Shown here piece after piece: positions 6,725-54,262 of a stretch of 64,000 nt of DNA. A model generated the notes under the pieces. It saw nothing but the letters and a program-made list of their open reading frames with translations. It ran no database searches and was not told the origin of the DNA. This DNA is from Paludibacter sp. 47-17 (lineage in GTDB: Bacteria > Bacteroidota > Bacteroidia > Bacteroidales > Paludibacteraceae): assembly GCA_001898935.1 (NCBI GenBank), contig MKVT01000001.1, positions 62,001 through 126,000 on the forward strand, given 5' to 3'. Numbering within the stretch: the stretch's first letter is position 1; every line of letters starts with the position of its first letter. A program made the translations under genes and the position numbers.

Positions 6725-6893
6725 GGTGGTATAACTGGATTGACAGTAGCTTTATTCAGGGAACTCTTCTATTTGTTTGCAAAGTTCCTTTTTTCAATTC
6801 TTATTGGTTGTAGCTATTGTAACAAATTGTTGCTCTCCTGTCAAAAAACGGTTTAAAGTCGGTACAGATAATTGGTTTTTATCTGAAATGTGC

Positions 6894-6901
6894 TTACTTT
6901 G
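6894..6901 (+). promoter_or_regulatory. Probable promoter of the first HTCS gene
   Basis: TTACTTTG matches TAnnTTTG at all but one position. TTGG at 6872 sits about 20 bases upstream, the expected spacing for a -33 element. The ATG at 6930 follows after a short leader, which supports that start over the longer reading frame. Confidence 0.45.
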
Positions 6902-6929
6902 TCTGAAAATTTTATTGACACTTCCTACC

Positions 6930-13447: not shown

Positions 13448-13483
13448 GATTGAATACATTGAATTGGATAGTTAATAATCGAC

Positions 13484-16327
13484 TTAGAAACGAAGACTGG
13501 TTCCAACGTTTATCACTCGTGTTTCGGGATAGAGGGTAACGCCGGCGTTTGGAATTTCGGCGCTGATGTTGTACCGGTTCATGTTGTCGAATGAAATCAG
13601 GTTATATGCGTTGACAAAAAAACGAAGATCGCTTATTTTTACAATTTCGAGTACTCGTTTGGGGAGGCTGTATCCCAGTTCGAGAGTCTGAATTCGCAGA
13701 AAATCGACGTCTTTCATCCAGAGCGACGAAGGCTGGTAGTTGTGCGGATTGGCCAGCGTTGTAAGTCGAGGATATACCGGGTCGGAAGCTACTCCCCACG
13801 AATTTTCGGCTACTTCCCGGGTCAGTTTCGTGTTGTTTTGCATACCGCGGAATACATTGTTGGTCATCATTAAACTGCGGTTGGCTATGCCGGTAAACAG
13901 AATATTAAAATCGAGTCCTTTATATTCCATGCCGATGTTGATTCCGTAATTCCATTCGGGTACCGACGGATTTCCCAGGGGTACCAGGTCCTGACTATCG
14001 ATAATGTTGTCGTTGTTCTGGTCGATGTATTTTATATCGCCGGGCTGTACACTGCCATAGGTTGAACGGGCCCAGCTGCCGATCTCGGTTTCATCGGCAA
14101 AGAAGCGATCGGAGCTGACTTCGAGTCCCCATTGCTGGTTCACACTCCGGCCGCGCCGGTATTCCCAATCGTTCATTCCGGCCAGCTCTTCGATGGCGCT
14201 GATGGTGTTGCGGGCAAACGATACCACCCCGCCTATGCTGTACCGGAAGTCGCCCAGGGTGTTGTCGTGACGGAGCGATACCTCGGCTCCCCGGGTTAGA
14301 ACCGAACCATTGTTGATGTAAGGCAGATCCTGTCCGATCAATAATGGATGGGTATTCCACATTCCGGTAATTATCTGCTTTCTGTCGTGATTAAACACAT
14401 CCACTTCCACGGTTATTTTCTTCCAGAGTCCAATTTCGATTCCCAGGTTTGCATTGAGCGATTCTTCCCAGAAAATCGAGGGATTGGGAATACGTCCTTC
14501 GGTTGCACCGTCGGTATTGGCGGTTCCGAAATAATAGCCACCGCCGCTGTTGAACTTTTCTTCAAATGGATAACGATAGCCGATACCGATGTTTGAATTC
14601 CCCACTTTTCCGTACGAAGTACGAATTTTTAAGTGTGTGATGGTCGGGTTGTTGCTCAGAAAATCTTCGTTCGAAACGGTCCAGGCCAGCGATCCTGTAG
14701 GGAAGAATCCAAACCGGTTACCTTTCGAAAAATTTTCGGAACCATTGTAGGCAAATCCAAACTCGGCAGCCAGTTTATGGTTCAGGGTATAGGTTGCACG
14801 TCCGAATAGGCCCTGGTTTCGGTAATCGGGATTGTCGCCGTCGGTCGATAAACTCGATTGCATATAGTTTACTTCAGCATCCAACCGGTCGTCGCCCCAT
14901 TGCGCGGAATACATCAGCCCGAATTTATAATTCAGCATCAGATTAAATTCGCTGCCCCAACCAGTATAAAACAAATCGATACTGGAACGTTCGCCGAATG
15001 TACTGTAACTATTGTCGGCGTTGAGTTGATATACAGCGTATTTCTGGCTTTTTGACCGTCCGTATTGTTTTACCGCATCGAAGCCGAACAAGCCGTTTAC
15101 CGACAGCCCCTTCACAATCGGGTCGAGTTTCAGATGAGCAGTTACGGTACCTTGCACATAGCGGGCGAACCGATCCTGAAATCCGGTCTGGGCTATCATA
15201 CCATAGGGATTGTAATTGTATACCGACGAGCCGGCTACTGATTTGTCGGCATTAAATACAGGCATTGCGGGCGATATGGTCGATAAGGCACTCATAATGG
15301 TGCCGGCCCCGGTCGAAGGCGTGTGGCGGTTTTCCACCCGGCCTCCCAGGTTGATACCCATCGACAGCAGCTGGTTTAAATCGACATCCACCGTTGAACG
15401 GAAATTATAACGGGAGAATTTGTTCTGTGTCGAATAGCCGCTATTTTCTTCGGTGTAATTGTACAAACCTTCCTGATCCATGATTCCCATCATCAGGTAA
15501 TAACGGGCCACACTGGAACCTCCCCTGAACGACAATTTATAGGATTGTTGGGGGGCCGAGCTTTTCAGAAATTCCTCGTGCCAATTGGTATTGGCATACC
15601 TATACGGATCGGATCCGTCGTAATTGGCCGGATTGTTTTGCGGGTTCGACAGAAACAGATCGTTGAACTCACTATCGGATAATCTGAAAAAGTCGTTGCG
15701 CAAAGCCTGATTACGGTAGCTCACATACTCTTTTGAACCCAGGTATTGAGGCAAACGGGTTGCCGATTGGGTGCCATATTGTGCCGTAAGGGTAATTACC
15801 GGTTTACCGATAAATCCACGTTTTGTAGTTACCAGTATTACCCCGTTGGCACCGCGCATTCCGTATAGTGCGGTTGCAGCGGCATCTTTCAGAATGGTTA
15901 TCGATTCAATTTCCTCGGGGTCGAGTTGCGAAAATTCACGTTCTACATGATCGACCATTACCAGGGGTGTGCTGCCACCTCCAAATGTTTGTACGCCGCG
16001 AATGTAAAACTGAGGTTGATCCCAGCCCGGCTCGGCTCCCACGGTTCTTAAAACGGTTAGTCCTCCTGCAAGGCCTTGTATGGCATTACCCAGCGTAGAT
16101 ACCGGAGCTTTGGAGAGTTGTTCGGAGCTCACGGTCGATTGTGCTCCTGTTACCATTATTGCGGGCCGCTTGCCATAGGCAACTGTAACGAGTTCTTCTT
16201 GTTTTTCTTTTTCTTTTTCTGAGGCGGTATTCTCGCTGGTGTCGGCCGATTGCGCCCGTGCACCGGTTGGCATGCCCAACATACCGACCAGGAGGAATAT
16301 ACCCGCTGAAGTTAGTTTTCTCAACAT
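13484..16327 (-). CDS. SusC-like TonB-dependent transporter lacking the usual N-terminal beta-sandwich
   Basis: About 947 residues from the ATG at 16327 (MLRKLTSAGIFLLVGMLGMP). The longer start at 16408 would overlap the preceding susD and lacks a signal peptide. After cleavage near GARAQS the mature protein starts with a charged linker (TASEKEKEKQEE) and goes straight to a TonB-box-like EELVTVAYGK and the plug (LGNAIQGLAGGLTVLR; GANGVILVTTKRG). The carboxypeptidase-like domain found in the other three SusC proteins here is missing. The barrel ends VGTSLRF. It is translated between two SusD genes and likely partners the downstream one. Without the N-terminal domain its interaction with TonB or with SusD could differ. 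Confidence 0.93.
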   Translation of the reverse strand: MLRKLTSAGIFLLVGMLGMPTGARAQSADTSENTASEKEKEKQEELVTVAYGKRPAIMVTGAQSTVSSEQLSKAPVSTLGNAIQGLAGGLTVLRTVGAEPGWDQPQFYIRGVQTFGGGSTPLVMVDHVEREFSQLDPEEIESITILKDAAATALYGMRGANGVILVTTKRGFIGKPVITLTAQYGTQSATRLPQYLGSKEYVSYRNQALRNDFFRLSDSEFNDLFLSNPQNNPANYDGSDPYRYANTNWHEEFLKSSAPQQSYKLSFRGGSSVARYYLMMGIMDQEGLYNYTEENSGYSTQNKFSRYNFRSTVDVDLNQLLSMGINLGGRVENRHTPSTGAGTIMSALSTISPAMPVFNADKSVAGSSVYNYNPYGMIAQTGFQDRFARYVQGTVTAHLKLDPIVKGLSVNGLFGFDAVKQYGRSKSQKYAVYQLNADNSYSTFGERSSIDLFYTGWGSEFNLMLNYKFGLMYSAQWGDDRLDAEVNYMQSSLSTDGDNPDYRNQGLFGRATYTLNHKLAAEFGFAYNGSENFSKGNRFGFFPTGSLAWTVSNEDFLSNNPTITHLKIRTSYGKVGNSNIGIGYRYPFEEKFNSGGGYYFGTANTDGATEGRIPNPSIFWEESLNANLGIEIGLWKKITVEVDVFNHDRKQIITGMWNTHPLLIGQDLPYINNGSVLTRGAEVSLRHDNTLGDFRYSIGGVVSFARNTISAIEELAGMNDWEYRRGRSVNQQWGLEVSSDRFFADETEIGSWARSTYGSVQPGDIKYIDQNNDNIIDSQDLVPLGNPSVPEWNYGINIGMEYKGLDFNILFTGIANRSLMMTNNVFRGMQNNTKLTREVAENSWGVASDPVYPRLTTLANPHNYQPSSLWMKDVDFLRIQTLELGYSLPKRVLEIVKISDLRFFVNAYNLISFDNMNRYNISAEIPNAGVTLYPETRVINVGTSLRF

Positions 16328-16358
16328 AAATATTAAATTTTCAGTTGTCGATTCGTTT

Positions 16359-18074
16359 TTAATAACCAGGATTCTGAACAAAAAGCGGATTTTTGTACAT
16401 TTCGCCAATTGGAATCTGGTACAGGTTGTTGGCTGGCCGGAAAATCCGGGTATAGTAATTTTCTTCGGTATAACTTACCGAGGCTCCGTTTTTAGTGATG
16501 ATAACCCGTTGCATCGGTCCGCCAAACCAACGGGTGGCTACTTCACCTTCTTCGCCGGTGCTCCAGCGCCGTGCATCCCACCACCGGTGCTCTTCAAAAC
16601 TCAATTCGATGGCGCGTTCGCGTTGAATTCGTTTACGCATCGATGGTTGATCGGCGGTCAGGTCGACCGGAAGATTAACAACACCGGATCGATTTCGTAC
16701 AGTATTAACAGCATCGCGAACCCGTTGTGTAGGACCTTCCACTTCGTTCATTGCTTCGGCATAATTGAGGTACATCTCGGCCAGCCGGAAGAAAATCCAG
16801 TTGTGGTAAGCGGTGGCGGTCGTGTTTTTCTTCACTTCTTCGGGAAGGTATTTCCTTACAAAATAGCCGGTGAGGAAGGTGCCCGAAGGAAATTGTGTGG
16901 TGGTGGTCGACATGTCCATGATTGCCCCCTGCCAGCTGCTTCCCTGATAAAGGATGGTTTTGTAGAAACGCGGATCCCGGTTCTTGTACGGGTCGTTCGG
17001 ATTATAGTTCGATCCGGCCTCATCAATATACCTTCCGTTGTTCATTTCGAACAATTTTACAAAATTGTTGGTAGGTTGTACAGCGCCTGCACCACCAAAA
17101 TCGCCCGATGGCATCCACACATTGATTTCGTTGCTACCGAAACCAACCGGTCCTTCGTGTTTATGGAAAATGATTTCTTTGTTTCCATGTTCCCGGCGTT
17201 TGAAAAATAGTTTTTCGTAATCGTCGGCTTTGTTTGCGGCGCCGGTTTGATAAAGTTCGTAGGCCGGATTACCTTCTTCATCCTTCAGATCGATCACGGC
17301 TTTAGCTGCATCGGCAGCTTTTTGCCACCAGCTTTTCCCGTCTTTGTCCATCCAGTCGTCGGTAGTTCCCCCCATTCCCCATAGGCCGGTTTTGCTGCTG
17401 AAGAGCGGGCTGGCGGCGTAGAGCAATACCCGCGCTTTGAGGGCCATGGCAGCTCCTTTGGTGGCACGGCCGTATTCGTTGGTAGGGATGCTTACGGGTA
17501 GCCATGCTATAGCCTGATCCAGGTCCTTCATGATGAAAGCAAACAGTTCGCGGTAGGTGTTGCGGGGGCGCATCAGGTTGTCGCCGGGAATAAACAAATC
17601 TTGTTCTGTCAGGACGGGCATTCCACCGAAACGCTTGAGCATTTCGTTGTAGTAAAATGCACGGAGAAAATAGACTTCACCCAGCATTTTTTCACGGGAT
17701 TTCTGATCGGGAAACGGAATTTTGTCCTTGTACTTGAGAAAAAGATTGGCTTTGCGAATATTCGAATAATGATGATAAATCAGGGCGTCGACTCCATCGT
17801 ACGATCCCATGTTGAAATTTTTGGTGCCGTGATAGCCCTGGTTCGATTCCGATTCGTCGGAGGCCGACGAAAGCGGTACTGGCTGGAAATTACCCAGCGC
17901 ATTGAAGCGGCTTTGCAGTCCGCTGTATATGTCGGCCTGAAATGCCTGTGCATTTACAAAATCGCTGAATACCTTTTCTTCGTCGAGATTGACATCCGGA
18001 GTCCGATCCAGGAAATCGTCGCAGGAAACAAAGACCAGCGTCAGCACGAAAAGTAGTTTAATTGTATGTTGCAT
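16359..18074 (-). CDS. SusD/RagB-like glycan-binding lipoprotein
   Basis: About 571 residues from the ATG at 18074 (MQHTIKLLFVLTLVF), giving a lipobox VFVSC followed by DDFLDRTPD, strongly acidic. The start at 18101 would overlap the SusC stop and weaken the signal peptide. Features include YFLRAFYYNEMLKRFGG, ALKARVLLYAASPLF, AELYLNYAEAMNE-like text, and the SusD C-terminal signature AIELSFEEHRWWDARRW. It ends YKNPLFVQNPGY. It lies 13 bases after its SusC partner (18088-21114) and 31 bases before the next SusC start. Confidence 0.95.
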   Translation of the reverse strand: MQHTIKLLFVLTLVFVSCDDFLDRTPDVNLDEEKVFSDFVNAQAFQADIYSGLQSRFNALGNFQPVPLSSASDESESNQGYHGTKNFNMGSYDGVDALIYHHYSNIRKANLFLKYKDKIPFPDQKSREKMLGEVYFLRAFYYNEMLKRFGGMPVLTEQDLFIPGDNLMRPRNTYRELFAFIMKDLDQAIAWLPVSIPTNEYGRATKGAAMALKARVLLYAASPLFSSKTGLWGMGGTTDDWMDKDGKSWWQKAADAAKAVIDLKDEEGNPAYELYQTGAANKADDYEKLFFKRREHGNKEIIFHKHEGPVGFGSNEINVWMPSGDFGGAGAVQPTNNFVKLFEMNNGRYIDEAGSNYNPNDPYKNRDPRFYKTILYQGSSWQGAIMDMSTTTTQFPSGTFLTGYFVRKYLPEEVKKNTTATAYHNWIFFRLAEMYLNYAEAMNEVEGPTQRVRDAVNTVRNRSGVVNLPVDLTADQPSMRKRIQRERAIELSFEEHRWWDARRWSTGEEGEVATRWFGGPMQRVIITKNGASVSYTEENYYTRIFRPANNLYQIPIGEMYKNPLFVQNPGY

Positions 18075-18087
18075 ACGATTACTGTTT

Positions 18088-21000
18088 TTAGAAGTTAACA
18101 CTTAAACCGATGTTAAAAGCCCGGGTTGGCGGCATTTTCCCCCCACGATTATCGCGGTTGTCGGGATCCAGGTATTTTTCAACCGACCACAAAAATGTGT
18201 TGTTCGACGATAAGTAGATGCGGGCGCTCGACATGAGTAGTTTTCTGCTGATCGAAGATGGGAGAGTATAGCCCATTTCGATGTTTTTCAACCGGATGTA
18301 GGTTCCTGAACCTGCCTCGTAGGTGGAATAATAACGCTCGTTGTTGACCCACGATTTCCCGTAGAAGCGAGTAAATTCTGCTGCATCGGCAATTTCTGGT
18401 GCCCAGTAATAGTTGTGCTTGGCAAATACATTATCGTTGTTCGAAAATGCCCACATGATTTCCCATTGTTTCATGAAAAGCGAATGGGCCGATCCTTGTA
18501 ATAGAAAGGAGAAATCGAAAGCCTTATAATTTCCCCCTACAGTAACTCCATATTGTAATTCCGGCACGGTGCCATAGCCTTGTCGGTAGGCATCGTCGCG
18601 GTTAATAACACCATCGTTGTTGAAATCCAGGAATTTAAGATCGCCGGGAACCACTTCCACATTGCTGGGGATTCCGTTGTGAACTGCCAGTTGCGACGGG
18701 CTGTTCCAGATTTCTTCGTAGCTATTGAAATAGCCGAGGTGTGTGTACATCAACGGAGTACCTATCGGGTATCCTTCTTCTTTTTGATAAGGGAGTAAGC
18801 CCAGCGGGTCGGCTTTTTTAAGAACCTTGTTGCGGTTGTAGGTGAAATTAGCCCGGATGTTGTAACTGAAGTTCCTGTTAACTTTCTTGTTATGCCGTAA
18901 CTCAATTTCAATACCATTGTTGGAGGTTTCGCCGATGTTGGCAACTTTAAATCCTGCGCCTACATACTCGGGTTTCACGGCATCGATATTCGTGAGAATA
19001 TTATTCCGGAATTCGCCGAAGAGATCGACGTTAAGACCGAACAGCCCGTTGAAAAATTCCGATTCGAATCCAATATTGAATTTACGGGCTACTTCCCAGG
19101 TGACCACTTTATTGGCAATATCTCCCTGGCGTATTCCATTGTAGTAGTTATTACCCGTCCCAAAGGTATATCCGCCGGCATTTGAAAAATCCTGTAAAAA
19201 TATAAATCGGTCGTTGCTCTTGTCATTTCCTACCCATCCCAGCGAAGCTCGCAGTTTAAGATTGGAGATCACTTGAGAGAGCGCCGATTCGGTCATAAAT
19301 TTTTCGTTGCTGATCAACCAGCCTCCGGCAAATGCGGGAAAAAAGCCATATTGTAGTCCCGGAGGAAAGTTTTCGGAGCCATTGTAGCCCACATTTACTT
19401 CGGCAAAATACCGACGGTCGTAATCGTAGGTGACGCGTCCTACCAAACCCTGATCGGCAAAGGCTACTTCAGCGTTGCGGATGAATTCGTTGCGGTTGGC
19501 CAGTATCAAACCGGTTACGGTATGATCGCCGAAATTCTGGTTATACGACAGGCCTCCTTCCAGGTAAAATTTAGTCCAGTTGTTGTTTTTAGCCACACCA
19601 TTGTAACCGAGCGGACGATTTTCGCCAAATTGTTGGTAAGTATTGGTAAGCTGATCGTACATATATTCGGCTGTCTCTTTGGTCCACGAACGGCCGTTTT
19701 CGCCCTGGGTATCGAACGCAGCCTGAACTTTGGCCGATAAGCCTTTCGTAATAAAGTCGAGTTTTTGTGTCAGACTCAGGCTCGATTCCAGGGTACTGGT
19801 AACACTCTTGTAATAGCCCGACTCCCTGAGCGATCGCATTATATTGCCACCGGTGCCGCTATAGGTCCCGTTGGGATTGTAAATAGGGTTGGTACGACCG
19901 TTGGCAGCGAAGGCTCCCCGGTAAATATTCCAGCTGCTCCAAATGGTGCTGGCGGGCGAATTCAGGTTTTCGACCCGGGCACCAATACTGAGCGAAGCGG
20001 TGAGGCTGTTGGTAATATCAATATCGAGGTTGTTGCGGAAATTAAAACGCGAATATTTCGTCATGTCGTCGTTTTCGTAAAATCCGTTTTGGTTAATAAA
20101 ACCACCCGAGATAAAGTAGCGGACGTTGGTTGTTCCACCCGAAACATTAACATTGTATTGCTGCTGAGTTGAAAAATCTTTCATGATGCTTCCAACCCAA
20201 TCCACATCCGAATGTGTCCAGGGCGATGCGCCGGTACGCCACAGGGCCAGGTCGTACGCCAGGGTACCTCCCTTGGTTTGAGGGGGGCGGTTCTTGTATT
20301 GTCCCCAATCCTGTAAATAAGCCAGATTACTGGCATCGTATGCTCCGAGGGGTTGCGGGATATTGATGGGTTGGGTAATAGCTGTTTGTACTGTTGCCGA
20401 AATTTTTGGTTTTCCCAACGCTCCCCGGCGGGTAGTAATAATAATGACCCCGTTGGCTCCCTTCACTCCGTATACCGCAGTTGCCGAGGCATCTTTCAGT
20501 ACGTTGAACGATTCGATCTCGTTGGGGTCGATTTTAGCAAATTCGCTTCGAACAATACCATCCACTACATAAAGCGGAGTAGCATCGTTCCAGGTCGAGC
20601 GTCCGCGGATATATATATCGGCCACGTCGCTGCCGATTTCACCCGAGCTTTGCACCACCTGCACTCCCGCAATTTTACCGGCAATGGATTGCGAGATGTT
20701 GGATACAGGGACCGAGACCAACGCTTTATTGTTAATGGTCGAAATAGACCCTACCACCGATTCTTTTTTCTGAGCGCCATAGCCCACTACGACCAGCTCC
20801 GTAAGTAGCTTGGTTTCCTCTTTCAGTTGCACATCGATTTTACGATGGCCCTGCACCGGTATTTCGGTGGTTACGTAACCTACGTAGCTGAATACCAGGA
20901 TGTCGGTTTGTAAATTCACCGCTTCAAGGGTGTAGTTCCCGTCCATGTCGGTAATGGTTCCGGCACTGGAGCCCTTACGGGCCACGTTTACTCCAATCAG

Positions 21001-21114
21001 TTCTTCGCCCGTGGCAGCGTCGGTTACTTTCCCGGTGACGAGAGTTCGTTGCTGAGCACTAACCATTTCCAGCGTGCACACGAGGGTTACTATAACTAAA
21101 ATTAGTTGTTTCAT
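18088..21114 (-). CDS. SusC/RagA-like TonB-dependent transporter
   Basis: 1008 residues, with a signal peptide ending at SAQQR. A carboxypeptidase-regulatory-like domain follows (about 25-110: VTGKVTDAATGEELIGVNV, TDMDGNYTLEAVN). The plug shows ISQSIAGKIAGVQVVQSSGE and PLYVVDGIVRSEFAK, then GANGVIIITTRRGALG, and the barrel ends IGLSVNF. It is the first SusC of the tandem and lies only 17 bases downstream of the lipocalin-like lipoprotein gene, so it belongs to the long operon running leftward from 27566 or 30476. Confidence 0.95.
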   Translation of the reverse strand: MKQLILVIVTLVCTLEMVSAQQRTLVTGKVTDAATGEELIGVNVARKGSSAGTITDMDGNYTLEAVNLQTDILVFSYVGYVTTEIPVQGHRKIDVQLKEETKLLTELVVVGYGAQKKESVVGSISTINNKALVSVPVSNISQSIAGKIAGVQVVQSSGEIGSDVADIYIRGRSTWNDATPLYVVDGIVRSEFAKIDPNEIESFNVLKDASATAVYGVKGANGVIIITTRRGALGKPKISATVQTAITQPINIPQPLGAYDASNLAYLQDWGQYKNRPPQTKGGTLAYDLALWRTGASPWTHSDVDWVGSIMKDFSTQQQYNVNVSGGTTNVRYFISGGFINQNGFYENDDMTKYSRFNFRNNLDIDITNSLTASLSIGARVENLNSPASTIWSSWNIYRGAFAANGRTNPIYNPNGTYSGTGGNIMRSLRESGYYKSVTSTLESSLSLTQKLDFITKGLSAKVQAAFDTQGENGRSWTKETAEYMYDQLTNTYQQFGENRPLGYNGVAKNNNWTKFYLEGGLSYNQNFGDHTVTGLILANRNEFIRNAEVAFADQGLVGRVTYDYDRRYFAEVNVGYNGSENFPPGLQYGFFPAFAGGWLISNEKFMTESALSQVISNLKLRASLGWVGNDKSNDRFIFLQDFSNAGGYTFGTGNNYYNGIRQGDIANKVVTWEVARKFNIGFESEFFNGLFGLNVDLFGEFRNNILTNIDAVKPEYVGAGFKVANIGETSNNGIEIELRHNKKVNRNFSYNIRANFTYNRNKVLKKADPLGLLPYQKEEGYPIGTPLMYTHLGYFNSYEEIWNSPSQLAVHNGIPSNVEVVPGDLKFLDFNNDGVINRDDAYRQGYGTVPELQYGVTVGGNYKAFDFSFLLQGSAHSLFMKQWEIMWAFSNNDNVFAKHNYYWAPEIADAAEFTRFYGKSWVNNERYYSTYEAGSGTYIRLKNIEMGYTLPSSISRKLLMSSARIYLSSNNTFLWSVEKYLDPDNRDNRGGKMPPTRAFNIGLSVNF

Positions 21115-21131: not shown

Positions 21132-21803
21132 TCAGTTAGTTACTTTTCTAAACCGGAATACGTAGGTTTTCAGGGTCTGAAATTCCTTGCGTATGGTCAG
21201 GTAATTATCGTCGCTGACCAGTTTGGGGAAGTACACGTCCTTACCGGCACCAGCATTTTTAATTTCCAGAAAATCGGCAGGATGAGGAGCAAACAGCAGT
21301 GCATATCTTTTTTCACCTTCAAAGGTTTTCAGACGGATTTCCATCTCCTGATCGGTGAGTTTCAGAATGGTAAACCGGGCCTGGATATGATTTTTAGCCC
21401 ATTGTTTTTGTACACTGGCCAGGGTGTCGATGCTGTTGTCGGGTTTCCGTGTTACAGCCACCTTGCCGGTCTCGGCACTCACTGAAGGATTGAACTGCCA
21501 TTTGTCGGTACTGATGTTGAGCCAGGTTCCATCGAGCATACTCCAGGTTCCGTAAAACGAAGTAGGTCCGTTACCATTGGCATAGGCCTGAAATACAGAA
21601 TGGTAATACCTCAGGATCCCGTTAGGTTCAATCATCAACTTAACAGTTTTTTGTTCTGGTGTCAGATTCATTTCCGATCCATCTTCGCTTATCGCAACCT
21701 GTTCCCAGAGTCCTGTGGCCGAGGCCGGTTCGTACAAGTCGTCGTCGCAAGCCGGTAAAAAGATGAAAGCCGGAAGAAAGAATAGTAATGAAAAGTATTT
21801 CAT
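21132..21803 (-). CDS. Lipocalin-like surface lipoprotein
   Basis: 223 residues. The signal peptide has lipobox IFLPAC (Cys about 19) followed by DDDLYEP, a very acidic surface-export signal. The mature protein opens with GLWEQVAISEDGSEMNLTPE, the first-strand pattern of Bacteroidota lipocalin-like domains. Later elements are YGTWSMLDGTWLNIS and FTILKLTDQEMEIRLKTFEGE. It may bind a small glycan or be structural. It is followed 17 bases later by SusC and preceded by a second, shorter lipocalin-like gene. Confidence 0.72.
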   Translation of the reverse strand: MKYFSLLFFLPAFIFLPACDDDLYEPASATGLWEQVAISEDGSEMNLTPEQKTVKLMIEPNGILRYYHSVFQAYANGNGPTSFYGTWSMLDGTWLNISTDKWQFNPSVSAETGKVAVTRKPDNSIDTLASVQKQWAKNHIQARFTILKLTDQEMEIRLKTFEGEKRYALLFAPHPADFLEIKNAGAGKDVYFPKLVSDDNYLTIRKEFQTLKTYVFRFRKVTN

Positions 21804-21880: not shown

Positions 21881-22324
21881 TTAGTTGATTTCGATAGAAG
21901 CTACCTTTCGGTACACCAGGGTCGATTTCACCAGGCTACCGGTGGTGGAAAATTCAGTTTTGCTCAAGGTGAGTAGTTGGTCGGTAAGAGTGGGTTCCCA
22001 CGATACCGGCAGATCGATGGCCAGATTAAACCTGCCGCCGGTATAACTCCACCCCGACCGCCGGATGATTTTGTTGGTGCTGACAGCCGTTCTGGTAGAG
22101 TCGCACAGAATACAAATCTGATCGGAATTGATTTGTATCAGCATTCGGGTGCTGTCTTTTGCTACAGCTTGTCCGTCGATGGTATATGATTGCTGATACC
22201 ATGTTCCTGTAATTCGGCTTGCCGTTGCGTCGACCGGTTCGTCGTCGCATCCTGTCAGTAACAGAGGCGAGGCAATTACAATACACAGTAGGAAAATCCT
22301 GCAGGCCGTTGAGACAATATTCAT
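21881..22324 (-). CDS. Small lipocalin-like lipoprotein
   Basis: 147 residues with lipobox LLLTGC (Cys about 26) followed by DDEPVDAT. The mature domain opens with ITGTWYQQSYTIDGQAV, the lipocalin-like G-x-W opening. It ends with a strand pattern, LLTLSKTEFSTTGSLVKSTLVYRK, close in style to the neighbour at 21132. A role in the same PUL is inferred from position. The two genes may be ancient duplicates that diverged strongly. Confidence 0.68.
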   Translation of the reverse strand: MNIVSTACRIFLLCIVIASPLLLTGCDDEPVDATASRITGTWYQQSYTIDGQAVAKDSTRMLIQINSDQICILCDSTRTAVSTNKIIRRSGWSYTGGRFNLAIDLPVSWEPTLTDQLLTLSKTEFSTTGSLVKSTLVYRKVASIEIN

Positions 22325-22425: not shown

Positions 22426-23853
22426 TTACCGGAGGATAACCTTTTGATTGTGAACTAATCCGTTTGCAGAGGTGGTTTTCACGATGTAAACTCCTTTTTC
22501 GCGAACGTTCAGTTCGGTCGACGAACCGTTGATATTGACCTTGGTTACCGAATGTCCAATCAGCGAGAACACTTCGGCCGATACAGCTTCGCCTTCCACG
22601 ATGATCTTTGTACCGGATGCCCGCACGAGTACCTCGGATAAAGGAGATTTTTCGACCGACGACGGAGCTTCTACTACGGTACGTGGCTCTTGGTTGTGGT
22701 TGATAGCGGCGGCATCGAGGTAGAAGGTGCCGGCAGGCGAATTGATATATTGATCGTTTGCATCGCGACGGAGGTCGAAGCGAACGGTAAATTCGGCAAC
22801 ATATCCCAGCGAAGTAACGTCCATCACACAATCGATCCACTTTCCTTTATCATCCGACCAATACTTGATTTCGTCGCCACTGTCGACCTGGTTACCCGAA
22901 AAATCCTTTGCATTAAGCTGAACGATATAGTAATCTTTTCCGGCTTCCATTTCGGGAATGTTGACCATAACATGCAGGTACGACGATTGCTCGTCCTGCC
23001 CAACTTTTAAAATACCCGGGAATTTGAACATCGGTCCCTGCCACCAGGCCGCAGTTTCACTTTTATTGAATTTCATCACTTTTGTTGAGTTGAGTACACT
23101 CATTTCGGAAGTAAAAGGATTGGTCACGATCTCGGAAGTGTTTTCCGGATTCTGAAGGTCAAACCGGCTCACCCATTTGTTCCACGAATCCTGATTACCC
23201 ATGAATAACGACATTTCCGTATCGGGCAAAATGTTGATGCCTCGGGGTAGAGGATTATCGCTCAACACGATTTCGTCGAAATAATAGTCGGCACCCGGGT
23301 TGGTACGATCGCCATTCCAGTCCATCGATACCCCGAACATAAATTTGCTCAGTGGAATCTGGTTGTCGATCAGGTATTTCAGGTCGATTACAATGTCCTC
23401 CCAAACGCCTTCCTTGGCATTTTGTCCGTCGAAACGTAATTTACCTTTGTCGGGATCTTCAAGAGGCCAGTCAACGTTTAAACAGATCATCCACGTATCG
23501 TTCAGTTTTTCGCGGTAATGCAGAATATGCAGGTAACGATTACTTTCGGTAATCGTAATCGGATTATCCATCCGGAAGTTCAGAAAGTTTGCCCACCAGT
23601 CGTGATTGGCATCCAGCTTAACCATGTATGCATTGTTGGTGTTGTTCATGGTTTCATCTTTCACTGCATTGGGTACTACTCCGTTAAAGAGTACAAAGGC
23701 TTTCGGAGGGGTTTCACAAAATACGGTCAGCGAAATGGGTTCTTCGCCCATGGGTTTTTCGTACGTGGCCAGAACGGTTTCGTTTGTAGTAGTAGCTGCA
23801 AAAAGGCTATATGCCGAAACAGCTAAAGTAAAAAGCGTAAAAATTCGTTTCAT
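22426..23853 (-). CDS. T9SS-exported protein with two copies of an unfamiliar DNPLPRG-type module
   Basis: About 475 residues from the ATG at 23853; the in-frame GTG at 23862 is less likely. Signal peptide MKRIFTLFTLAVSAYSLFA. Two modules of about 170-190 residues follow. The first (about 25-205) contains SNRYLHILHYRE and ends YYFDEIVLSDNPLPRG. The second (about 210-390) has AAWWQGPMFKF and YLHVMVN and ends in the degraded TFYLDAAAINHNQEPRT. The last about 75 residues are a type IX sorting domain (VFSLIGHSVTKVNI; EKGVYIVKTTSANG; ending NQKVILR). No catalytic motif is visible. I infer a secreted or surface glycan-binding scaffold that helps the GH30 at 23998. A TAnnTTTG lies at 23898-23905. 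Confidence 0.8.
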   Translation of the reverse strand: MKRIFTLFTLAVSAYSLFAATTTNETVLATYEKPMGEEPISLTVFCETPPKAFVLFNGVVPNAVKDETMNNTNNAYMVKLDANHDWWANFLNFRMDNPITITESNRYLHILHYREKLNDTWMICLNVDWPLEDPDKGKLRFDGQNAKEGVWEDIVIDLKYLIDNQIPLSKFMFGVSMDWNGDRTNPGADYYFDEIVLSDNPLPRGINILPDTEMSLFMGNQDSWNKWVSRFDLQNPENTSEIVTNPFTSEMSVLNSTKVMKFNKSETAAWWQGPMFKFPGILKVGQDEQSSYLHVMVNIPEMEAGKDYYIVQLNAKDFSGNQVDSGDEIKYWSDDKGKWIDCVMDVTSLGYVAEFTVRFDLRRDANDQYINSPAGTFYLDAAAINHNQEPRTVVEAPSSVEKSPLSEVLVRASGTKIIVEGEAVSAEVFSLIGHSVTKVNINGSSTELNVREKGVYIVKTTSANGLVHNQKVILR

Positions 23854-23897
23854 GTTGATCACTGTTTTTAATTAATATTAGTTTAAGAAACACTGTG

Positions 23898-23905
23898 CAA
23901 ATGTA
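23898..23905 (-). promoter_or_regulatory. -7 promoter element upstream of the two-module T9SS protein
   Basis: TACATTTG on the minus strand, a perfect TAnnTTTG, 45 bases before the ATG at 23853. It suggests that the genes from here leftward can be transcribed apart from the GH30 gene upstream. Confidence 0.5.
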
Positions 23906-23997
23906 CATGGAGTGCTATGATGTGTTTTGAAGTATTGTAACAATCCGTTTCAATTCTGTATCAAAATGAGGATGAGTTTTCGGGTCGGTACCGGGTG

Positions 23998-26172
23998 CTA
24001 AGGTACCAGGATCTTTTGTGTAAAAGTAGTAGCATTGTTAACGCACATAATCAGATAGACGCCCGGTTGTAACCGTACGGGATAACTGCCGGTGGCATTC
24101 ACAGTCCCCGTAGCCATAACGAGTACACCTGCCGAATCGTAAATAAACAGTTCGACAGTTCCCTCGTTATCAGGGTTGACTAACCGGATAGTCGAATCGG
24201 AATAGCGGAGTTGCTGAGGTCCGGCGTATCGCGGCTTACTTACCGCAGTAGGTGCCTGAAGGGGTATTACAAACGTGGTTACTGTTTCGGGTTGCGAAGT
24301 GTACGAAAACTCTTTTCCGGTAATATTGAAAAAAGTTTCGGCAGTACGTATCCCGAGCGATTCTTCAGCGCGGGTACGCACTTGTTTTACACGTCCGAAG
24401 CCTTCAAAACGGGAAAGATCGAACGTGAAGTTCTGGGTAAGCTGTTCTTTGTTGCTGACAATAAGCACTAATTCTTTTTCGTCGGGACTTAAAGCGGCAA
24501 TGCTGTTTTGGGCAGAACTGAAAATAATACGGTATCCGGGTTTCAGATAACGGCTGAACTGAGCTCTTACATAATACGAAATAGCCCTGCTGATAGGATT
24601 TTGAAGACTGCTGTATTCGCCTACGATGAGCCCCCAGGTGGGGCTGGCATCGGCGGCCAGCTGCCAGTCGATCCAGGCCGTGCATTTCATATCGCGCAGA
24701 TCGGTAATGATACGGTCCGACATGGTCATAATCTGGAAAGCAGGGGTGCCTCCTACGTTGAGGGGACCCGATTCCGATTGCCACAGTTTTTTACCGTTCG
24801 TTCGCGCCCAATTGAACAGGTCGTTTCTTCGGCTTCCGCCGTAACTGTGAACCGAAACCAATTCAAATTTAGGAACGATATCGCCTGCATTTTTGTAAGC
24901 CTGCATGGCGTTCAGACAAGCGTCGATGGTATTGGCATCATTGGCTGTGATTTTGCAATACGACAGCATGTTTTTTTCACTCAGTTTCGCATACAACTCT
25001 CTGATCATGTTAATCTGGTCGTTGTTGCTGAAATAGCATCCTTCCTGACCGCCCAATGCCTTCCACCAGCCTCCGTCGGGTTCATTGAAGGGTTCCAGGT
25101 AATTAAACGTAATACCCAACGAATCATGATAATATCGGGTGACCTCCGTCAGATAGTCGGCGAAATCGTCGAACATATCCGATTTCAGATTGGTCACATT
25201 GCCCTCGACGCTTCCGGCCGAGCAGCCGCTGCGGGTCATCCAATAAGGAGGAGAGTTGGAAAATGCAATCAGTTGAATGTCGTTGACTCCGGTTTTGGCA
25301 ATACGCGAAGCGATAAGCTGTTGAAGGATTTTCCGTTGATTCGCATCCTGCGACCAGTCGTAGGGTGCGGTAGCAGAGGCTTTGTATCCGGGCATGTTAC
25401 CTCCGTCGCCCCGCATGTGATTGTGGGTCGGATCGTCGCCTCCCCCGATATTAAACCGGAATATATTCATGTTCAGACCGCCGACGGGATCGGTAAGCCA
25501 ATCGCACACCGTTTTAATCTTGGAGTCGGAATATCCGCCCATTATATTGGCCCACCAGCATAGTGAACCTCCCCAACCTTCGAGCTGCTGAAATTGTTGT
25601 GCCGGATCGATGGTGACCGGCGACCTGGTGAGCGAGTTCGGATCATCCGACAATCTGATCTGGTCAAAATAATAGGTTCCGGCGTCATCGGCAATTTTTA
25701 TCGCTATCATCTTCAGATTGATACCAGTCGGGATACTGATCACGTAATCGATCCAGTTGCCCGTAGTTGTATTGCTCTGCCAGTTATCGCTGCTTTGATT
25801 GCCGCCGTCGGGCCGGTAGGTGATGGCAATCCGGCTGGTGGTGGCTTTATATACCATCACATGTAGATATTGATTGGATGCGGTGATGGGGACGGCATTC
25901 AGGAAATTAATTTCAAGGCCGGTCCAGTAAGGATCACCGCTTTGTTTTATGATTTTATATGCGTTCGAGCTGCTGTTGATGGTGTTTACCAAAGGGTTGG
26001 GAGCCGACCACGTACTTGCCGATACGCCGGCATTGGAGTAGTTCAGCCACGACCCGACTGTAGCCGGTACGGTCGGACTCTCAAAGTCGAGCAGCACCGT
26101 TTCGGCACTTTGAGCCGGTTGAATAAAGCTGTTAAAAACAACAAAGAGCGAAAGAAGTAAAAAATGTTTCAT
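23998..26172 (-). CDS. T9SS-exported GH30 endo-glycanase with N-terminal DNPLPRG-type module (possible beta-1,6-galactanase)
   Basis: 724 residues. The signal peptide ends near AQSAE. One repeated module (about 23-178) follows, with NPLVNTINSSSNAYK, YWTGLEI, YLHVMVYK and an ending YYFDQIRLSDDPNS. A GH30 catalytic domain covers about 183-640: QLEGWGGSLCWWANIMGGYS, NIFRFNIGGGDDPTH, acid/base E about 364 in LEPFNEPDGG, nucleophile E about 467 in LWQSESGPL. The C-terminal type IX sorting tail is VELFIYDSAGVLV...GVYLIMCVNN...KILVP. The GGSLCWWAN and RFNIGGG elements recall fungal endo-beta-1,6-galactanases of GH30 subfamily 5; this is recollection, not a search. It should cut the main chain outside the cell. 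It is flanked on both sides by T9SS proteins made of the same module. Confidence 0.88.
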   Translation of the reverse strand: MKHFLLLSLFVVFNSFIQPAQSAETVLLDFESPTVPATVGSWLNYSNAGVSASTWSAPNPLVNTINSSSNAYKIIKQSGDPYWTGLEINFLNAVPITASNQYLHVMVYKATTSRIAITYRPDGGNQSSDNWQSNTTTGNWIDYVISIPTGINLKMIAIKIADDAGTYYFDQIRLSDDPNSLTRSPVTIDPAQQFQQLEGWGGSLCWWANIMGGYSDSKIKTVCDWLTDPVGGLNMNIFRFNIGGGDDPTHNHMRGDGGNMPGYKASATAPYDWSQDANQRKILQQLIASRIAKTGVNDIQLIAFSNSPPYWMTRSGCSAGSVEGNVTNLKSDMFDDFADYLTEVTRYYHDSLGITFNYLEPFNEPDGGWWKALGGQEGCYFSNNDQINMIRELYAKLSEKNMLSYCKITANDANTIDACLNAMQAYKNAGDIVPKFELVSVHSYGGSRRNDLFNWARTNGKKLWQSESGPLNVGGTPAFQIMTMSDRIITDLRDMKCTAWIDWQLAADASPTWGLIVGEYSSLQNPISRAISYYVRAQFSRYLKPGYRIIFSSAQNSIAALSPDEKELVLIVSNKEQLTQNFTFDLSRFEGFGRVKQVRTRAEESLGIRTAETFFNITGKEFSYTSQPETVTTFVIPLQAPTAVSKPRYAGPQQLRYSDSTIRLVNPDNEGTVELFIYDSAGVLVMATGTVNATGSYPVRLQPGVYLIMCVNNATTFTQKILVP

Positions 26173-26213
26173 GTAAAATGATGTAGTTGGTGGAAAAAAT
26201 GAGAAGGAAACCG

Positions 26214-26246
26214 AAAATCCGGCATTGGGGTGCTATGCCGGATTTT
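26214..26246. terminator. Intergenic terminator-like hairpin
   Basis: AAAATCCGGCAT (26214-26225) is perfectly complementary to ATGCCGGATTTT (26235-26246), with a 9-base loop. On the minus strand the stem is followed only by its own four T residues, so read-through into the GH30 gene is likely. It may attenuate transcription after the two-module protein at 26265. Confidence 0.65.
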
Positions 26247-26264
26247 TGTTGAAAAGATTGAGAA

Positions 26265-27566
26265 TCAGAGTTGTATCGAAACGGGGGTGGTGTGATTGCC
26301 CCAACGAACCAGATAAATACCCGGTTGCGAAACCGTCAATACGGTACGGTTGCTGACAGGAGCTGTTTGTAACAGTTTTCCCGTTACATCGTACAAGGCG
26401 ACGCTCGACTCCGTTGCCGATTCAATTATTATTTGATTGCCCTGCGTAAAAATCATCCGGGCGTTTTGGAGGCCATCGGCAGCTGTGGTCACCCCTACAC
26501 GAGGTGAAGCGTTGTCGTCGAGGTAAATCTCGTCGATATAATAATTACCGGCAGCTGTTTGGTCCCAATGTCCGCATTTTACACTGCCCCCCGAAATAAA
26601 CGGATAAGCCGAAAGATCGATCACTACATCGTACCATACATTTGCTACGGGAACCGTTACGGCCATATCATTGATCACCTTGGTGCTTCCCGATTTAATG
26701 TCGAACACTACTTTTTGGCCATCGGCCGGCACCATAACCAGGGTATGCAGGTATTTGTGAGCAGCATCGATTTTCACCGGACTTGCAAATGAATACTCGA
26801 ACCCGGTCCACCAGTTGGTAGTGGCGGCAGCTACCCTTAAACCACTGTTATTGCTTGGATTCAGCGCGTTTTTAAGCGGATTGGCAATTGGATAGGTTAC
26901 CGGATTATTGGTGTCGGCATAGGTAGTTACTCCTCCGATATTGGCCGCCGTTGCAGGTTCGAAATCCCACAAATTATTGGTTGTAAGGTACGTCGTGCCG
27001 CGGGGCAGTGGGTTGTCGTTTACAATAATCTCGTCGATATAGGCAAATTTGTCCGAGTTATTCAATACCTGGCCTGCGGGATTGTTGTTGAATCCAAGAT
27101 CGGCCAGAAAGTTGATTTGAATTACCGTTTTTCCGGAGGCGCCGCCATTAATTTCGAAAACGATATCCTGCCATTGCCCGATGGCCGAATAACCGTTCAT
27201 TGCCCGGATATCGGCATTCCCGTCGCCTCCCGCAGTAGTAGCATCTACTCTGATGGCAATGTCGGGCTGAGCATCGTACTTCACCAAAATATGAACGTAC
27301 CGTTTGGCATTTGCAGGTACAGTAAAACTGGCCGGGAAATAACTCAATTCATACCAGTTGGTGGAGGTACGGCCGATTTTACCGCTGTTGGCGGTGGTGT
27401 TCAATCCTGCCGGTAAAGGATTGGCATCGTTAGTATACGACGCTCCGTATTTGGTGGTAACAGCCGGAGAACCGCTTTCAAAATTGTTAAGAACCACATC
27501 GGCAGCTTCGAGAGCTGTGGAAAGAGCAAGGAATGCTCCAATGAGATAAAAGGTAGTTGTTTTCAT
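26265..27566 (-). CDS. T9SS-exported protein with two DNPLPRG-type modules
   Basis: 433 residues with signal peptide MKTTTFYLIGAFLALSTALEA. Module 1 (about 22-190) has NWYELSYFPAS and RYVHILVKYD and ends FAYIDEIIVNDNPLPRG. Module 2 (about 198-358) has NPLKNALNPSNNSG, NWWTGFEYSF and KYLHTLVMV and ends YYIDEIYLDDNASPR. The last about 65 residues are a type IX sorting domain (SVALYDVTGKLLQTAPV; QPGIYLVRWGNH). Aromatic residues inside otherwise beta-rich modules fit carbohydrate binding. No hydrolase motif is seen. It is the first gene after the GH2 and has its own TAnnTTTG at 27603-27610. Confidence 0.8.
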   Translation of the reverse strand: MKTTTFYLIGAFLALSTALEAADVVLNNFESGSPAVTTKYGASYTNDANPLPAGLNTTANSGKIGRTSTNWYELSYFPASFTVPANAKRYVHILVKYDAQPDIAIRVDATTAGGDGNADIRAMNGYSAIGQWQDIVFEINGGASGKTVIQINFLADLGFNNNPAGQVLNNSDKFAYIDEIIVNDNPLPRGTTYLTTNNLWDFEPATAANIGGVTTYADTNNPVTYPIANPLKNALNPSNNSGLRVAAATTNWWTGFEYSFASPVKIDAAHKYLHTLVMVPADGQKVVFDIKSGSTKVINDMAVTVPVANVWYDVVIDLSAYPFISGGSVKCGHWDQTAAGNYYIDEIYLDDNASPRVGVTTAADGLQNARMIFTQGNQIIIESATESSVALYDVTGKLLQTAPVSNRTVLTVSQPGIYLVRWGNHTTPVSIQL

Positions 27567-27685: not shown

Positions 27686-27716
27686 CAATGATCGGACATA
27701 AGGTGCCTGATCATTG
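27686..27716. repeat. Hairpin overlapping the GH2 stop codon
   Basis: CAATGATC (27686-27693) pairs with GATCATTG (27709-27716). It overlaps the GH2 stop codon at 27711-27713 and lacks a T-run on the minus strand. Possible weak terminator or mRNA end-protecting structure. Confidence 0.4.
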
Positions 27717-30476
27717 TTGTTGTTTCTTAAGATAGCGTTCCAGTTTTTGAAATTCGACAGTTTCTGTGGGTTTAAACCGGTCAGAATTCATGTATTTCAA
27801 TATGCTATAGCGTAGTTGACGTGCTACCGGCCGGTTGGCAATGTCGGAGAGTAAGTCCATCGACGACACGATGATCGTTCCGTTTCCGCAACGGGCTTCA
27901 ATAATAGAACTCAAACGCCGGTTTTTCATGAAATTGTCGACATTTTCAACTATAGGAGTCAGTTCGGGGAGAGAATCGATAACCATCGTACGTGACTTTT
28001 TGCATAAATCCCACCATTGCCAGTTGGTATGCGTGTCGGTTGGAAAATGGGTAAAGGCCGGGTGCGAAGGATCAATCAGCAAGCCCATGGTCCCGGGTTG
28101 ATCGGGGAAATGCACCGGACTCCAGAAAACTTGCACGAATTTACCTTCTACCCCCTGTACCGATTCGGGGGCCGGACTCAACAATACTTTTTTGCCTGCA
28201 ATAAGTGCTTTCCGGGCCTCTTCCCACGATTCGGTAACCACAATGTTGCCCGTCGGCATCGCGACCTGTGCCGGATAAACCCAGATTTCCCAGCGATTCC
28301 GGATTGTACTTCCTTCCAGCTGGACCTCGATATTCAGCTTGCTGGCTTCCGTAATGCCCGAAAGACCGAATTCCAGTTTCCCTGCCGTTGTCAGCTTTCC
28401 ATTTCCGGCTGTGAATGCAGGACTACGGCCCTGTCCGATAACAGCACTTCCTTGCCTGATTTTCCAGATTAAGTGTTGATGGGTTAATGTCGTTGCACCA
28501 TAATTGGCCAGTTCTATGCTGGCACTAAACGTTTCATCGGATGTGTAGGTGGCCTTCTCGTAGCGGATAAGAGGAGTGACGGGAGCGCAAAATTCACGAA
28601 ACTGCTCGGGTAGAATCAACCCTTTGCTTTCCCAGAACGCATCCAGTAACCCGACCAAAGCAGTGCCTTGCCCGGGAAAATCGTGCAGATCGAGTAATTG
28701 AAAGCCGCTGATTCCATTGGTTTTCAATGCCCGTTCGATTTCTTCTTTATAGAGTAAAGCCGCCAGCTTTCCCGATGCCTGTGTGTATTCGCCTGCCCGA
28801 TGACGCAATCCCTTTGTTTCCAGATCGTTGGCTACGGCCTTGAAATTTAAGGGATCGAGAACCCCGGTGTATTTTTTTATTTCTTCCAGATTGGGGTATA
28901 CCGCATACTGACCGATTTCGTGAGTAATCAACGGTACAGGCATCCCTTCGATGGCTACTGAATAGTCTTTGTTGAACGAAGGGGCTTCGGTGTCAAATAC
29001 GCCCTGTCCTCTGACCCAACCTTTATCGGTGTATTGTGTGATAAAGAAGTCGTCGTTGGGTTCGGGCCATTTTCCATGACCTTTTTCGAAGGTGAAGGAA
29101 GTATTGGTATATAAGTGCCGTGGATCCTTCTTCTTTAATTCGTCCACTAAGTTGTTCAGGAACATAAAATCGGGTTGAAGTTCATTGCCCATACTCCACA
29201 AGCAGAAAGACGGATGATGTCCGTATTCGCGTATGATGCGGTCGGCTTCGGCATACAGAAACTGATTGGTAGCGTTGTCCTTATTTACATTGAGCGACCA
29301 GAGCGGAAGTTCAACCTGAAGGTACATCCCTGCTTCGTCGGCCGCTTCGAAGGCTGCCGACGGCGGACACCACGAATGGAACCGGATATGGTTCAATCCC
29401 CATTCCCGTGCCGTGGTGTATAGTTTTTTCCAGGCATCAACCGAAGTGGGCGGATAGCCCGTTAGCGGAAAGATGGCACATTCGAGGGTGCCCCGTAAAA
29501 ATAAAGTACGGCCGTTGATCTGTAACTTTGCGTCGCGGTTGGTGAGTTCCCGCATTCCAAATTTTTTCTGCTGTGCCGACTCGAAATGCTTTCCGGTTAG
29601 CCGGACTGCCAATGTATATAATGCCGGATTGAATTCGTCCCATAAATCGGGCGATTCACCCATTGGATATTGGGTAACTATTTCTGACGTAGTCGTACGT
29701 ATGTCGAAAGGAATGGTGAGTTCGGTTAATTTCCTGTTTTTTGCCGGCTGGGTGGCTGTCATACTGAGTATGCCTTTTTGCCGGTTCCCGGTTGAATTGT
29801 TTATTTTGACTTTCACGAGTACTTGCTTTTTTGCAATATCGGGAAATAAAGTAAACTCATCGATATATACCCTGTCGTGTGCGGTAAGTGATAATTCTCC
29901 TAGTATACCGTTCCATTTAATCTGCGTTTCGTTGGTATAGGCATGGGCCATTTCGTTCACCGATATATCATATTTTTTGCGGTTATCGACACGAATAGTC
30001 AGTCGATGGGTGCCCGGGCTCAGATACCTGGTTAAGTCGTAGTAATGGGGGGTGGATAAGCTTTCCTGCGTCGAGTTTACTTCTTGCCCGTTGATCCAGA
30101 CCCGGGTTTCCCAAATCACACGTTCCAGTTTTAACTGAATATTTTTGTTTTTCCAGTCTGTTGGTATGGTTATCTGCCGTGTATACCAAGCTGCGCCGAT
30201 ATAGCTGTTGCGACGTGTCAGACGGAGTACCTGGGGTTTTTCGAGTTGAGGGAGCAGGGTGTTTGCAAGGCCTGATTGTGCATCGTCGGTTGTACCCGGT
30301 AACCGGATGGACTGGTCGAATCCGGTTGTATGCCACAGATTGGTTATGCCTGAGTCGGCACTGTCGAGACGTACATGCCAGCTGCCGGCCAAGTCGATAC
30401 GATGGGATGTTGCCATGAGCGGTAACGCGACTAATAGAAGTACGGCGGCCGTAATAAGGTGTCCGGGATGTTTCAT
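27711..30476 (-). CDS. GH2-family secreted exo-glycosidase
   Basis: 921 residues, with a signal peptide ending near LMATSH. Domain order: GH2 sugar-binding jelly roll (about 25-205; AAWYTRQITIP, VWETRVWINGQEV-like text), an Ig-like domain (about 215-320), and the TIM barrel (about 325-600). The acid/base Glu is about 432 in WSMGNEL, the nucleophile Glu about 520 in LITHEIGQY. C-terminal beta domains (about 640-921) include a region resembling a catalytically silent glutamine-amidotransferase-like fold. GH2 members include beta-galactosidases, beta-glucuronidases and beta-mannosidases; specificity cannot be told. It lacks a T9SS tail and lipobox, so it is likely periplasmic and finishes fragments imported by the SusC proteins. 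It has its own TAnnTTTG at 30506-30513 and is divergent from the GH3. Confidence 0.9.
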   Translation of the reverse strand: MKHPGHLITAAVLLLVALPLMATSHRIDLAGSWHVRLDSADSGITNLWHTTGFDQSIRLPGTTDDAQSGLANTLLPQLEKPQVLRLTRRNSYIGAAWYTRQITIPTDWKNKNIQLKLERVIWETRVWINGQEVNSTQESLSTPHYYDLTRYLSPGTHRLTIRVDNRKKYDISVNEMAHAYTNETQIKWNGILGELSLTAHDRVYIDEFTLFPDIAKKQVLVKVKINNSTGNRQKGILSMTATQPAKNRKLTELTIPFDIRTTTSEIVTQYPMGESPDLWDEFNPALYTLAVRLTGKHFESAQQKKFGMRELTNRDAKLQINGRTLFLRGTLECAIFPLTGYPPTSVDAWKKLYTTAREWGLNHIRFHSWCPPSAAFEAADEAGMYLQVELPLWSLNVNKDNATNQFLYAEADRIIREYGHHPSFCLWSMGNELQPDFMFLNNLVDELKKKDPRHLYTNTSFTFEKGHGKWPEPNDDFFITQYTDKGWVRGQGVFDTEAPSFNKDYSVAIEGMPVPLITHEIGQYAVYPNLEEIKKYTGVLDPLNFKAVANDLETKGLRHRAGEYTQASGKLAALLYKEEIERALKTNGISGFQLLDLHDFPGQGTALVGLLDAFWESKGLILPEQFREFCAPVTPLIRYEKATYTSDETFSASIELANYGATTLTHQHLIWKIRQGSAVIGQGRSPAFTAGNGKLTTAGKLEFGLSGITEASKLNIEVQLEGSTIRNRWEIWVYPAQVAMPTGNIVVTESWEEARKALIAGKKVLLSPAPESVQGVEGKFVQVFWSPVHFPDQPGTMGLLIDPSHPAFTHFPTDTHTNWQWWDLCKKSRTMVIDSLPELTPIVENVDNFMKNRRLSSIIEARCGNGTIIVSSMDLLSDIANRPVARQLRYSILKYMNSDRFKPTETVEFQKLERYLKKQQQ

Positions 30477-42426: not shown

Positions 42427-42495
42427 CGTTCTTATTTTTTGAGGGATTCTGCCAATGTTTGTAGGAGTCTTCTGTGCGGATGAAAAGCAGGTGGT

Positions 42496-44187: not shown

Positions 44188-44262
44188 ACGCTTTAAAAAA
44201 ACAATTACCACGCCGGCCCGAGAAGCGAGCCGGCATAGTAATCTTCTGTGAATCAAACGAGC

Positions 44263-46260: not shown

Positions 46261-46282
46261 ATTCTGTACGTTGTTAAAAAGG

Positions 46283-47923: not shown

Positions 47924-47942
47924 ACGATTATCGTTTTAAAAA

Positions 47943-51122: not shown

Positions 51123-51179
51123 ACTTCCTGTTTTATTTTTAAAGTTAACAATCGTCGTGTCGGGAGATCGGTGTTGCAG

Positions 51180-51202
51180 CCACCGGCTGGTCGGGCCGGT
51201 GG
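51180..51202. repeat. Hairpin between the GH31 and susC genes
   Basis: CCACCGGC (51180-51187) pairs with GCCGGTGG (51195-51202), 7-base loop. No T-run follows on the minus strand. Likely an mRNA stability or processing hairpin that could set different levels of GH31 and SusC/D within one operon. Confidence 0.5.
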
Positions 51203-51216
51203 ACGGTGGAATGCAA

Positions 51217-54063: not shown

Positions 54064-54125
54064 CGGTATCCAAAAATTTAAAGTTGATGGTGGTGCCGGA
54101 GCCGATGCGACCTGATCCGGCATTA

Positions 54126-54133
54126 CAAAGGTA
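54126..54133 (-). promoter_or_regulatory. -7 promoter element for the xyloglucan-type PUL operon
   Basis: TACCTTTG on the minus strand, a perfect TAnnTTTG, 63 bases before the GH31 ATG at 54063. The intergenic region 54064-54291 is a divergent control region that the HTCS is likely to bind. Confidence 0.6.
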
Positions 54134-54262
54134 CGAAGGCATCCGGAGCTCCTGCAGGAAAAATGTTTAAAGAGCGGTGCGGTATTGATAACACAGGGGG
54201 GCGAATGGTTAACTGTTGGGGATGGTTTTGTTAACAAAGCTCGAAAACCGTCAAAAAAAGCG

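Follow-up and report, generated by a model that had tools for sequence, protein, structure and literature searches.

The window analyzed here is a 64,000-nucleotide stretch of Paludibacter sp. 47-17 (contig MKVT01000001.1, positions 62,001 to 126,000), in which three minus-strand genes encode proteins of 433, 724 and 475 amino acids that share one repeated module in five copies. We consider it likely that this module is a beta-sandwich carbohydrate-binding module (CBM) exported by the type IX secretion system (T9SS), that it forms a divergent subfamily (named YLH-type in what follows) within the group of CBM X584 (PDB 8qx6) and CBM4/9-like domains, and that beta-1,6-galactan is its likeliest ligand. 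YLH-type is a new subfamily of a known kind of CBM.

Sequence comparison confirmed all five copies. The 433-amino-acid protein (26265..27566) consists of a signal-peptide-like start, two modules (m433a, 27000..27500, and m433b, 26499..26999) and a T9SS tail at about 26268-26438. The 475-amino-acid protein (22426..23853) is built in the same way from m475a (23239..23787), m475b (22681..23238; the most divergent of the five copies) and a tail at about 22429-22638. In the 724-amino-acid protein (23998..26172), a signal-peptide-like start is followed by a single N-terminal module (m724, 25627..26106), a catalytic domain of glycoside hydrolase (GH) family 30 (residues 185-590, 24403..25620) and a tail at about 24001-24186. 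The tails are T9SS type A C-terminal sorting domains. The preliminary description of this DNA had proposed the same architecture, with two proteins made of two modules plus a sorting tail and a third joining one module to a GH30; the repeat, the arrangement and the T9SS-type tails were all borne out, and the module is in all likelihood carbohydrate-binding, as had been suggested.

In the three window proteins, no Pfam family matched over a module at its cut-off. With an iterated profile, 58 module matches (50 unique) were obtained in 32 open reading frames (ORFs) of the fetched loci, whose L numbers denote stretches chosen around module matches; 49 of the unique modules were aligned (A1; one L037 copy was omitted), and a smaller alignment (A2) held the five window modules and two from L041. 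Pfam matches among the A1 members were scattered: NEAT, CILP, DUF1254, PLipase_C_C, InhA-like_MAM and other families appeared in one to three members each, the best being InhA-like_MAM in one member (E 5.3e-4), and were rejected as assignments. When the PDB was searched with the A1 profile, the sole sequence at an E value of 5 or better was 8qx6 (E 2.6e-4), which carries the title 'Novel laminarin-binding CBM X584'; its chain is named as a PKD domain-containing protein, whereas the window proteins have no PKD match. Zuhlke et al. (2024) reportedly deal with new laminarin-interacting CBMs, to go by their title, and may be the authors who describe 8qx6.

The comparison with described CBMs was extended through a third alignment (A3), which comprised 32 hand-picked sequences of 51 wider-relative matches and contained no window module. 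The A3 profile matched 8qx6 at E 6.2e-22 and 1gui, a CBM4/9-type module of laminarinase 16A, at E 9.1e-5. In hhalign, A3 was matched by A1 at 7.4e-28 and by A2 at 5.7e-23. Its profile also found all five window copies (E 1e-13 for m724, 7e-10, 3e-6 for m433a, 6e-5 for m475a, and 1e-4, in a search of 177,635 sequences), with scores of 25.4 to 54.6 bits compared with at most 8.5 bits in 1000 shuffles. Since A3 was gathered using A1, only the step from A3 to 8qx6 does not depend on how the rows were chosen. A single-sequence phmmer search with 8qx6 gave no score above shuffles for any of the five window copies. The family CBM_4_9 (PF02018) was matched by 7 of the 32 A3 relatives at E 0.01 or better and by none of the 49 A1 members at E 0.1. 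The likeness to CBM4/9-type modules (PF02018; 1gui) lies in the fold and in a weak match between profiles for the wider relatives, whereas the window modules themselves had no PF02018 match in the Pfam scan. The preliminary description had suggested that the family might be undescribed, and this holds in part: all five copies connect to a described CBM by way of A3, though direct comparison with 8qx6 stays at shuffle level, and the modules, related to X584 and CBM4/9-type modules by profile and fold, nevertheless form a distinct subfamily for which we found no name.

The AlphaFold model of m433b is a jelly roll with the same fold as 8qx6, at 14% identity in the structural alignment. CBM4 structures were among its fold matches, which also included domains not named as CBMs, e.g. 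meprin and reelin. A tree was calculated from 134 modules (49 from A1, 32 from A3, all 52 order-level matches, and 8qx6). One split, with a support of 0.97, united 91 tips, 89 of them with His85, and left 8qx6 and all A3 rows outside, where no His85 occurred; the window modules and 8qx6 belong to different clades. Tyr83 is present in 47 of 49 A1 rows versus 2 of 32 A3 rows, and His85 in 48 of 49 versus none of 32. Trp64 occurs in 39 of 49 A1 rows and 25 of 32 A3 rows, an aromatic residue being common at this position in both clades, and Trp122 and Asp156 are found in every row of both alignments. At positions 63, 64, 83 and 85, X584 has Gln-Tyr-Thr-Thr and the first window row Trp-Trp-Tyr-His. 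Because residues 84 and 88 of the strand carrying Tyr83 and His85 are mostly hydrophobic in A1, this alternation hints weakly that residues 83 and 85 may face outward, and Trp64 may do likewise on its own strand. Glu14 and Asp156 may bind a structural calcium ion, a feature of related CBMs. Another newly reported CBM, CBM112, belongs to a Bacteroides locus, is inserted in a GH26 and binds beta-mannan (PMC13357471); we set it beside YLH-type by description only.

The enzymes of the locus point to the ligand. The GH30 domain of the 724-amino-acid protein aligned over 406 residues with the secreted endo-beta-1,6-galactanase 24td (E 2.6e-48), and its motifs PFNEP and SESG correspond to PFNEP and SETG in 24td; these motifs hold the catalytic glutamates. 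Unlike 24td, the window protein has a YLH-type module at its N terminus and ends in a T9SS tail. The neighbouring GH2 protein (27711..30476, minus strand) matched the model of the exo-beta-1,4-galactosidase BT4151 with 892.7 bits, below its cut-off of 1500. From these two resemblances, galactan side chains are the probable target of the locus. We consider it most likely that the modules bind the polymer cut by these enzymes, and that their ligand is the beta-1,6-galactan of type II arabinogalactan. Since relatives of the module are fused to rhamnosidase-type, fucosidase and AXE1 proteins, ligands probably differ across the family.

The same fold and role could serve a laminarin-like beta-glucan instead, as for X584. 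The nearest solved sequence relative binds laminarin according to its title, a relative in L141, from the genome of another order, adjoins a GH16, and a GH3 is also encoded in the window. We nevertheless consider a beta-glucan ligand unlikely, because the enzymes of the window locus resemble galactan-cutting ones, the window modules are separated from 8qx6 in the tree, and no GH16 was found among the 25 window ORFs (of 77 listed) that were scanned with Pfam. It is less likely still that the modules serve as beta-sandwich spacers or as docking domains between proteins, which would merely position the enzyme and link the T9SS proteins in a complex without touching sugar. Such a role would suit a jelly roll that is shared with meprin and reelin, the single InhA-like_MAM match, the two window proteins made of modules and tail alone, and the L047 proteins with four modules each; however, the only PDB sequence found by the A1 profile is a CBM, wider relatives match CBM_4_9, the modules are fused to several unrelated glycan-acting enzymes, and position 64 is aromatic in both clades. 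Finally, a CBM family without sequence kinship to any described one, as first proposed, would agree with the lack of module-spanning Pfam matches and the shuffle-level similarity to 8qx6, but is very doubtful in view of the profile links to X584 and CBM_4_9, and we rejected it.

Known surface glycan-binding proteins (SGBPs) of Sus-like loci are lipid-anchored. The window proteins differ from such SGBPs (SGBP-B, 7k44; Bacova_02650, 5e7g and 5e7h) by their T9SS-type tails, and none of the three has a lipobox pattern. We propose the 475-amino-acid protein as a putative SGBP: it is encoded near a SusC/SusD pair, as are SGBPs, but lacks the lipoprotein signal. Its full-length structure model was poor, and fold matches obtained from it serve as support only. 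Among ten module proteins scanned for the T9SS tail, eight passed the cut-off, the L041 protein was just under it (22.3 bits) and the L141 protein had none. In 24 fetched module proteins, a lipobox pattern occurred only in those of L141 and L050, and the one in L050, inside a signal-peptide-like stretch, may be due to chance. The T9SS packaging of this subfamily is unusual. Glycoside hydrolases with CBMs, nearly all of them bearing T9SS domains, are described in PMC10449523.

The gene order around the 475-amino-acid protein is conserved. In the window, the order is GH2, the 433-amino-acid protein, GH30, the 475-amino-acid protein, two small proteins that are weakly lipocalin-like (21881..22324, Lipocalin_4 E 0.092, and 21132..21803, E 0.015, both below cut-off), two SusC/SusD pairs and a small protein. 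According to the domain scan, the pairs comprise a SusC-type TonB-dependent porin (18088..21114), a SusD-type protein (16359..18101), a second SusC-type protein (13484..16408; only the Plug domain matched) and a second SusD-type protein (11750..13459), all, like the two small proteins, on the minus strand. A hybrid two-component regulator on the plus strand (6777..11030; domain scan), which probably regulates the module locus, and a second GH30 (5144..6724, minus strand), which resembles 3clw, follow. Tandem SusC/SusD pairs like those at 11750-21114 were also seen in L041, L049, L050, L051, L052, L126 and L142, some of them truncated where the fetched DNA stops.

We counted 13 loci with two- or three-module proteins in which no other domain was seen and whose best window match was the 475-amino-acid protein; fragments and single-module or longer proteins were omitted (two in L043, L048:6271-6651, L049:17321-18145, L139:5615-6451, L144:1768-5019 and two in L145). 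In 12 of the 13 (window, L041, L044, L046, L048, L049, L050, L051, L052, L057, L126 and L142), the 475-like protein directly precedes two small proteins and a SusC-SusD pair; for the thirteenth (L133:18434-19906), the fetched stretch ends 94 bases beyond the gene. L041 comes from a metagenome-assembled genome titled Dysgonamonadaceae; the contig search with the 475-amino-acid protein had given two loci, of which L041 was used and L042 (a 783-amino-acid protein matching residues 336-475, E 4e-5) was not. A window-type GH30 lies beside the 475-like protein in 8 of the 12 loci (window, L044, L046, L048, L050, L052, L057 and L142) and was not seen in the fetched stretches of L041, L049, L051 and L126. 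In L052, the GH30 has ricin-type lectin repeats in place of the module, and three modules make up the 475-like protein. The earlier view of modules grouped around a GH30 is correct, but a scaffold 'built around one enzyme' describes these loci too narrowly.

The four nearest relatives of the 433-amino-acid protein (37-41% identity; L044, L045, L046 and L143) are all encoded near a window-type GH30; in L044 and L046, one gene separates the two. The intervening gene in L044 (13086-14174) is URO-D-like in the Pfam scan, and that in L046 (11765-12853) is likened to it by size and position only. Two more distant relatives (L133:4085-5869 and L136:4894-6201) had no such GH30 in the stretch seen. L127 and L136 contain other proteins made of modules and a tail beside different SusC/SusD pairs, and no pair was seen within 7 to 12 kb in L130, L134 and L135. 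L141, from another order of the same class, encodes SusC, SusD, a two-module PKD protein bearing the lipobox, the GH16, and a protein that best matches the window GH3.

From the computed features (homology, the fold of one copy, the subfamily, gene order and sorting tails) we infer how the system could work. The three proteins would exit via Sec and T9SS and remain on or near the cell surface. The paired modules of the 475- and 433-amino-acid proteins would grip a polymer chain, each with an exposed face lined with Trp64, Tyr83 and His85, and the single module of the GH30 protein would hold the endo-galactanase on the polymer. The 475-amino-acid protein might then pass chains to SusC/SusD, as lipid-anchored SGBPs do elsewhere, and the two SusC/SusD pairs would import the fragments. 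The secreted module proteins probably retain plant galactan on the cell surface beside a cutting enzyme and an importing pore. More tentatively, YLH-type might be a CBM family of its own, distributed across the order, and the T9SS counterpart of the lipid-anchored SGBP, with enzyme-free tandem CBMs fixed in tandem SusCD loci and a Trp-Trp/Tyr-x-His face for beta-1,6-galactan.

To our knowledge, the capture protein of Sus loci has been a lipoprotein only, although T9SS-borne ones may already have been published; provided that the 475-like proteins do capture glycan on the cell surface, T9SS export would be a second way for Sus-like loci to place it. The profile makes a large group of binding modules, mostly missed by Pfam, searchable, and placing the window members beside a solved laminarin-binding CBM makes the ligand and the binding face testable. 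CBMs for beta-1,6-galactan would serve as probes for arabinogalactan proteins.

The module is conserved and widespread. With the A1 profile, it was found in 59 of 394 genomes sampled across the phylum (35 of 172 genera; E 1e-6) and in 68 of 393 sampled across the order (46 of 207 genera; E 1e-8), and the 433-amino-acid protein was matched in 18 of 60 genomes at E 1e-5, several matches covering the sorting tail only. The 475-like gene is patchy within the genus (10 of 48 genomes at E 1e-15; the match in G034 is a 433-like protein). All these counts include the genome studied here. In plasmid records, the 433-amino-acid protein was unmatched at E 1e-3; in viral contigs, one stretch fitted a pattern and none was confirmed. 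Contig C2 of the same genome encodes further copies, carried by proteins of 295, 785 and 1053 amino acids, the latter two with DUF4978 and GH35/42 matches below cut-off. The second module cluster of this genome (L011:6363-15573) contains, besides DUF4978 proteins, two that resemble nucleoside hydrolases, one of which scores below cut-off. L047:7655-19933 encodes proteins of 933, 925 and 1380 amino acids with four modules apiece, in two pairs, and a 2143-amino-acid open frame (G277:C10:4357-8694), from a genome that shares the class but not the order, has at least six module matches.

Two other regions of the window deserve mention. At 30685-32868, the GH3 gene ends at 32472, with the Fn3-like C-terminal domain encoded by the next ORF (32497-32868), indicating a split gene, a frameshift or an assembly error. 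At 40843-54237, a second Sus-like locus encodes a GH5 with BACON, SusD, a SusC-type ORF (by position), proteins of 527 and 665 amino acids without Pfam match, and a GH31 with PA14; it looks like a xyloglucan locus.
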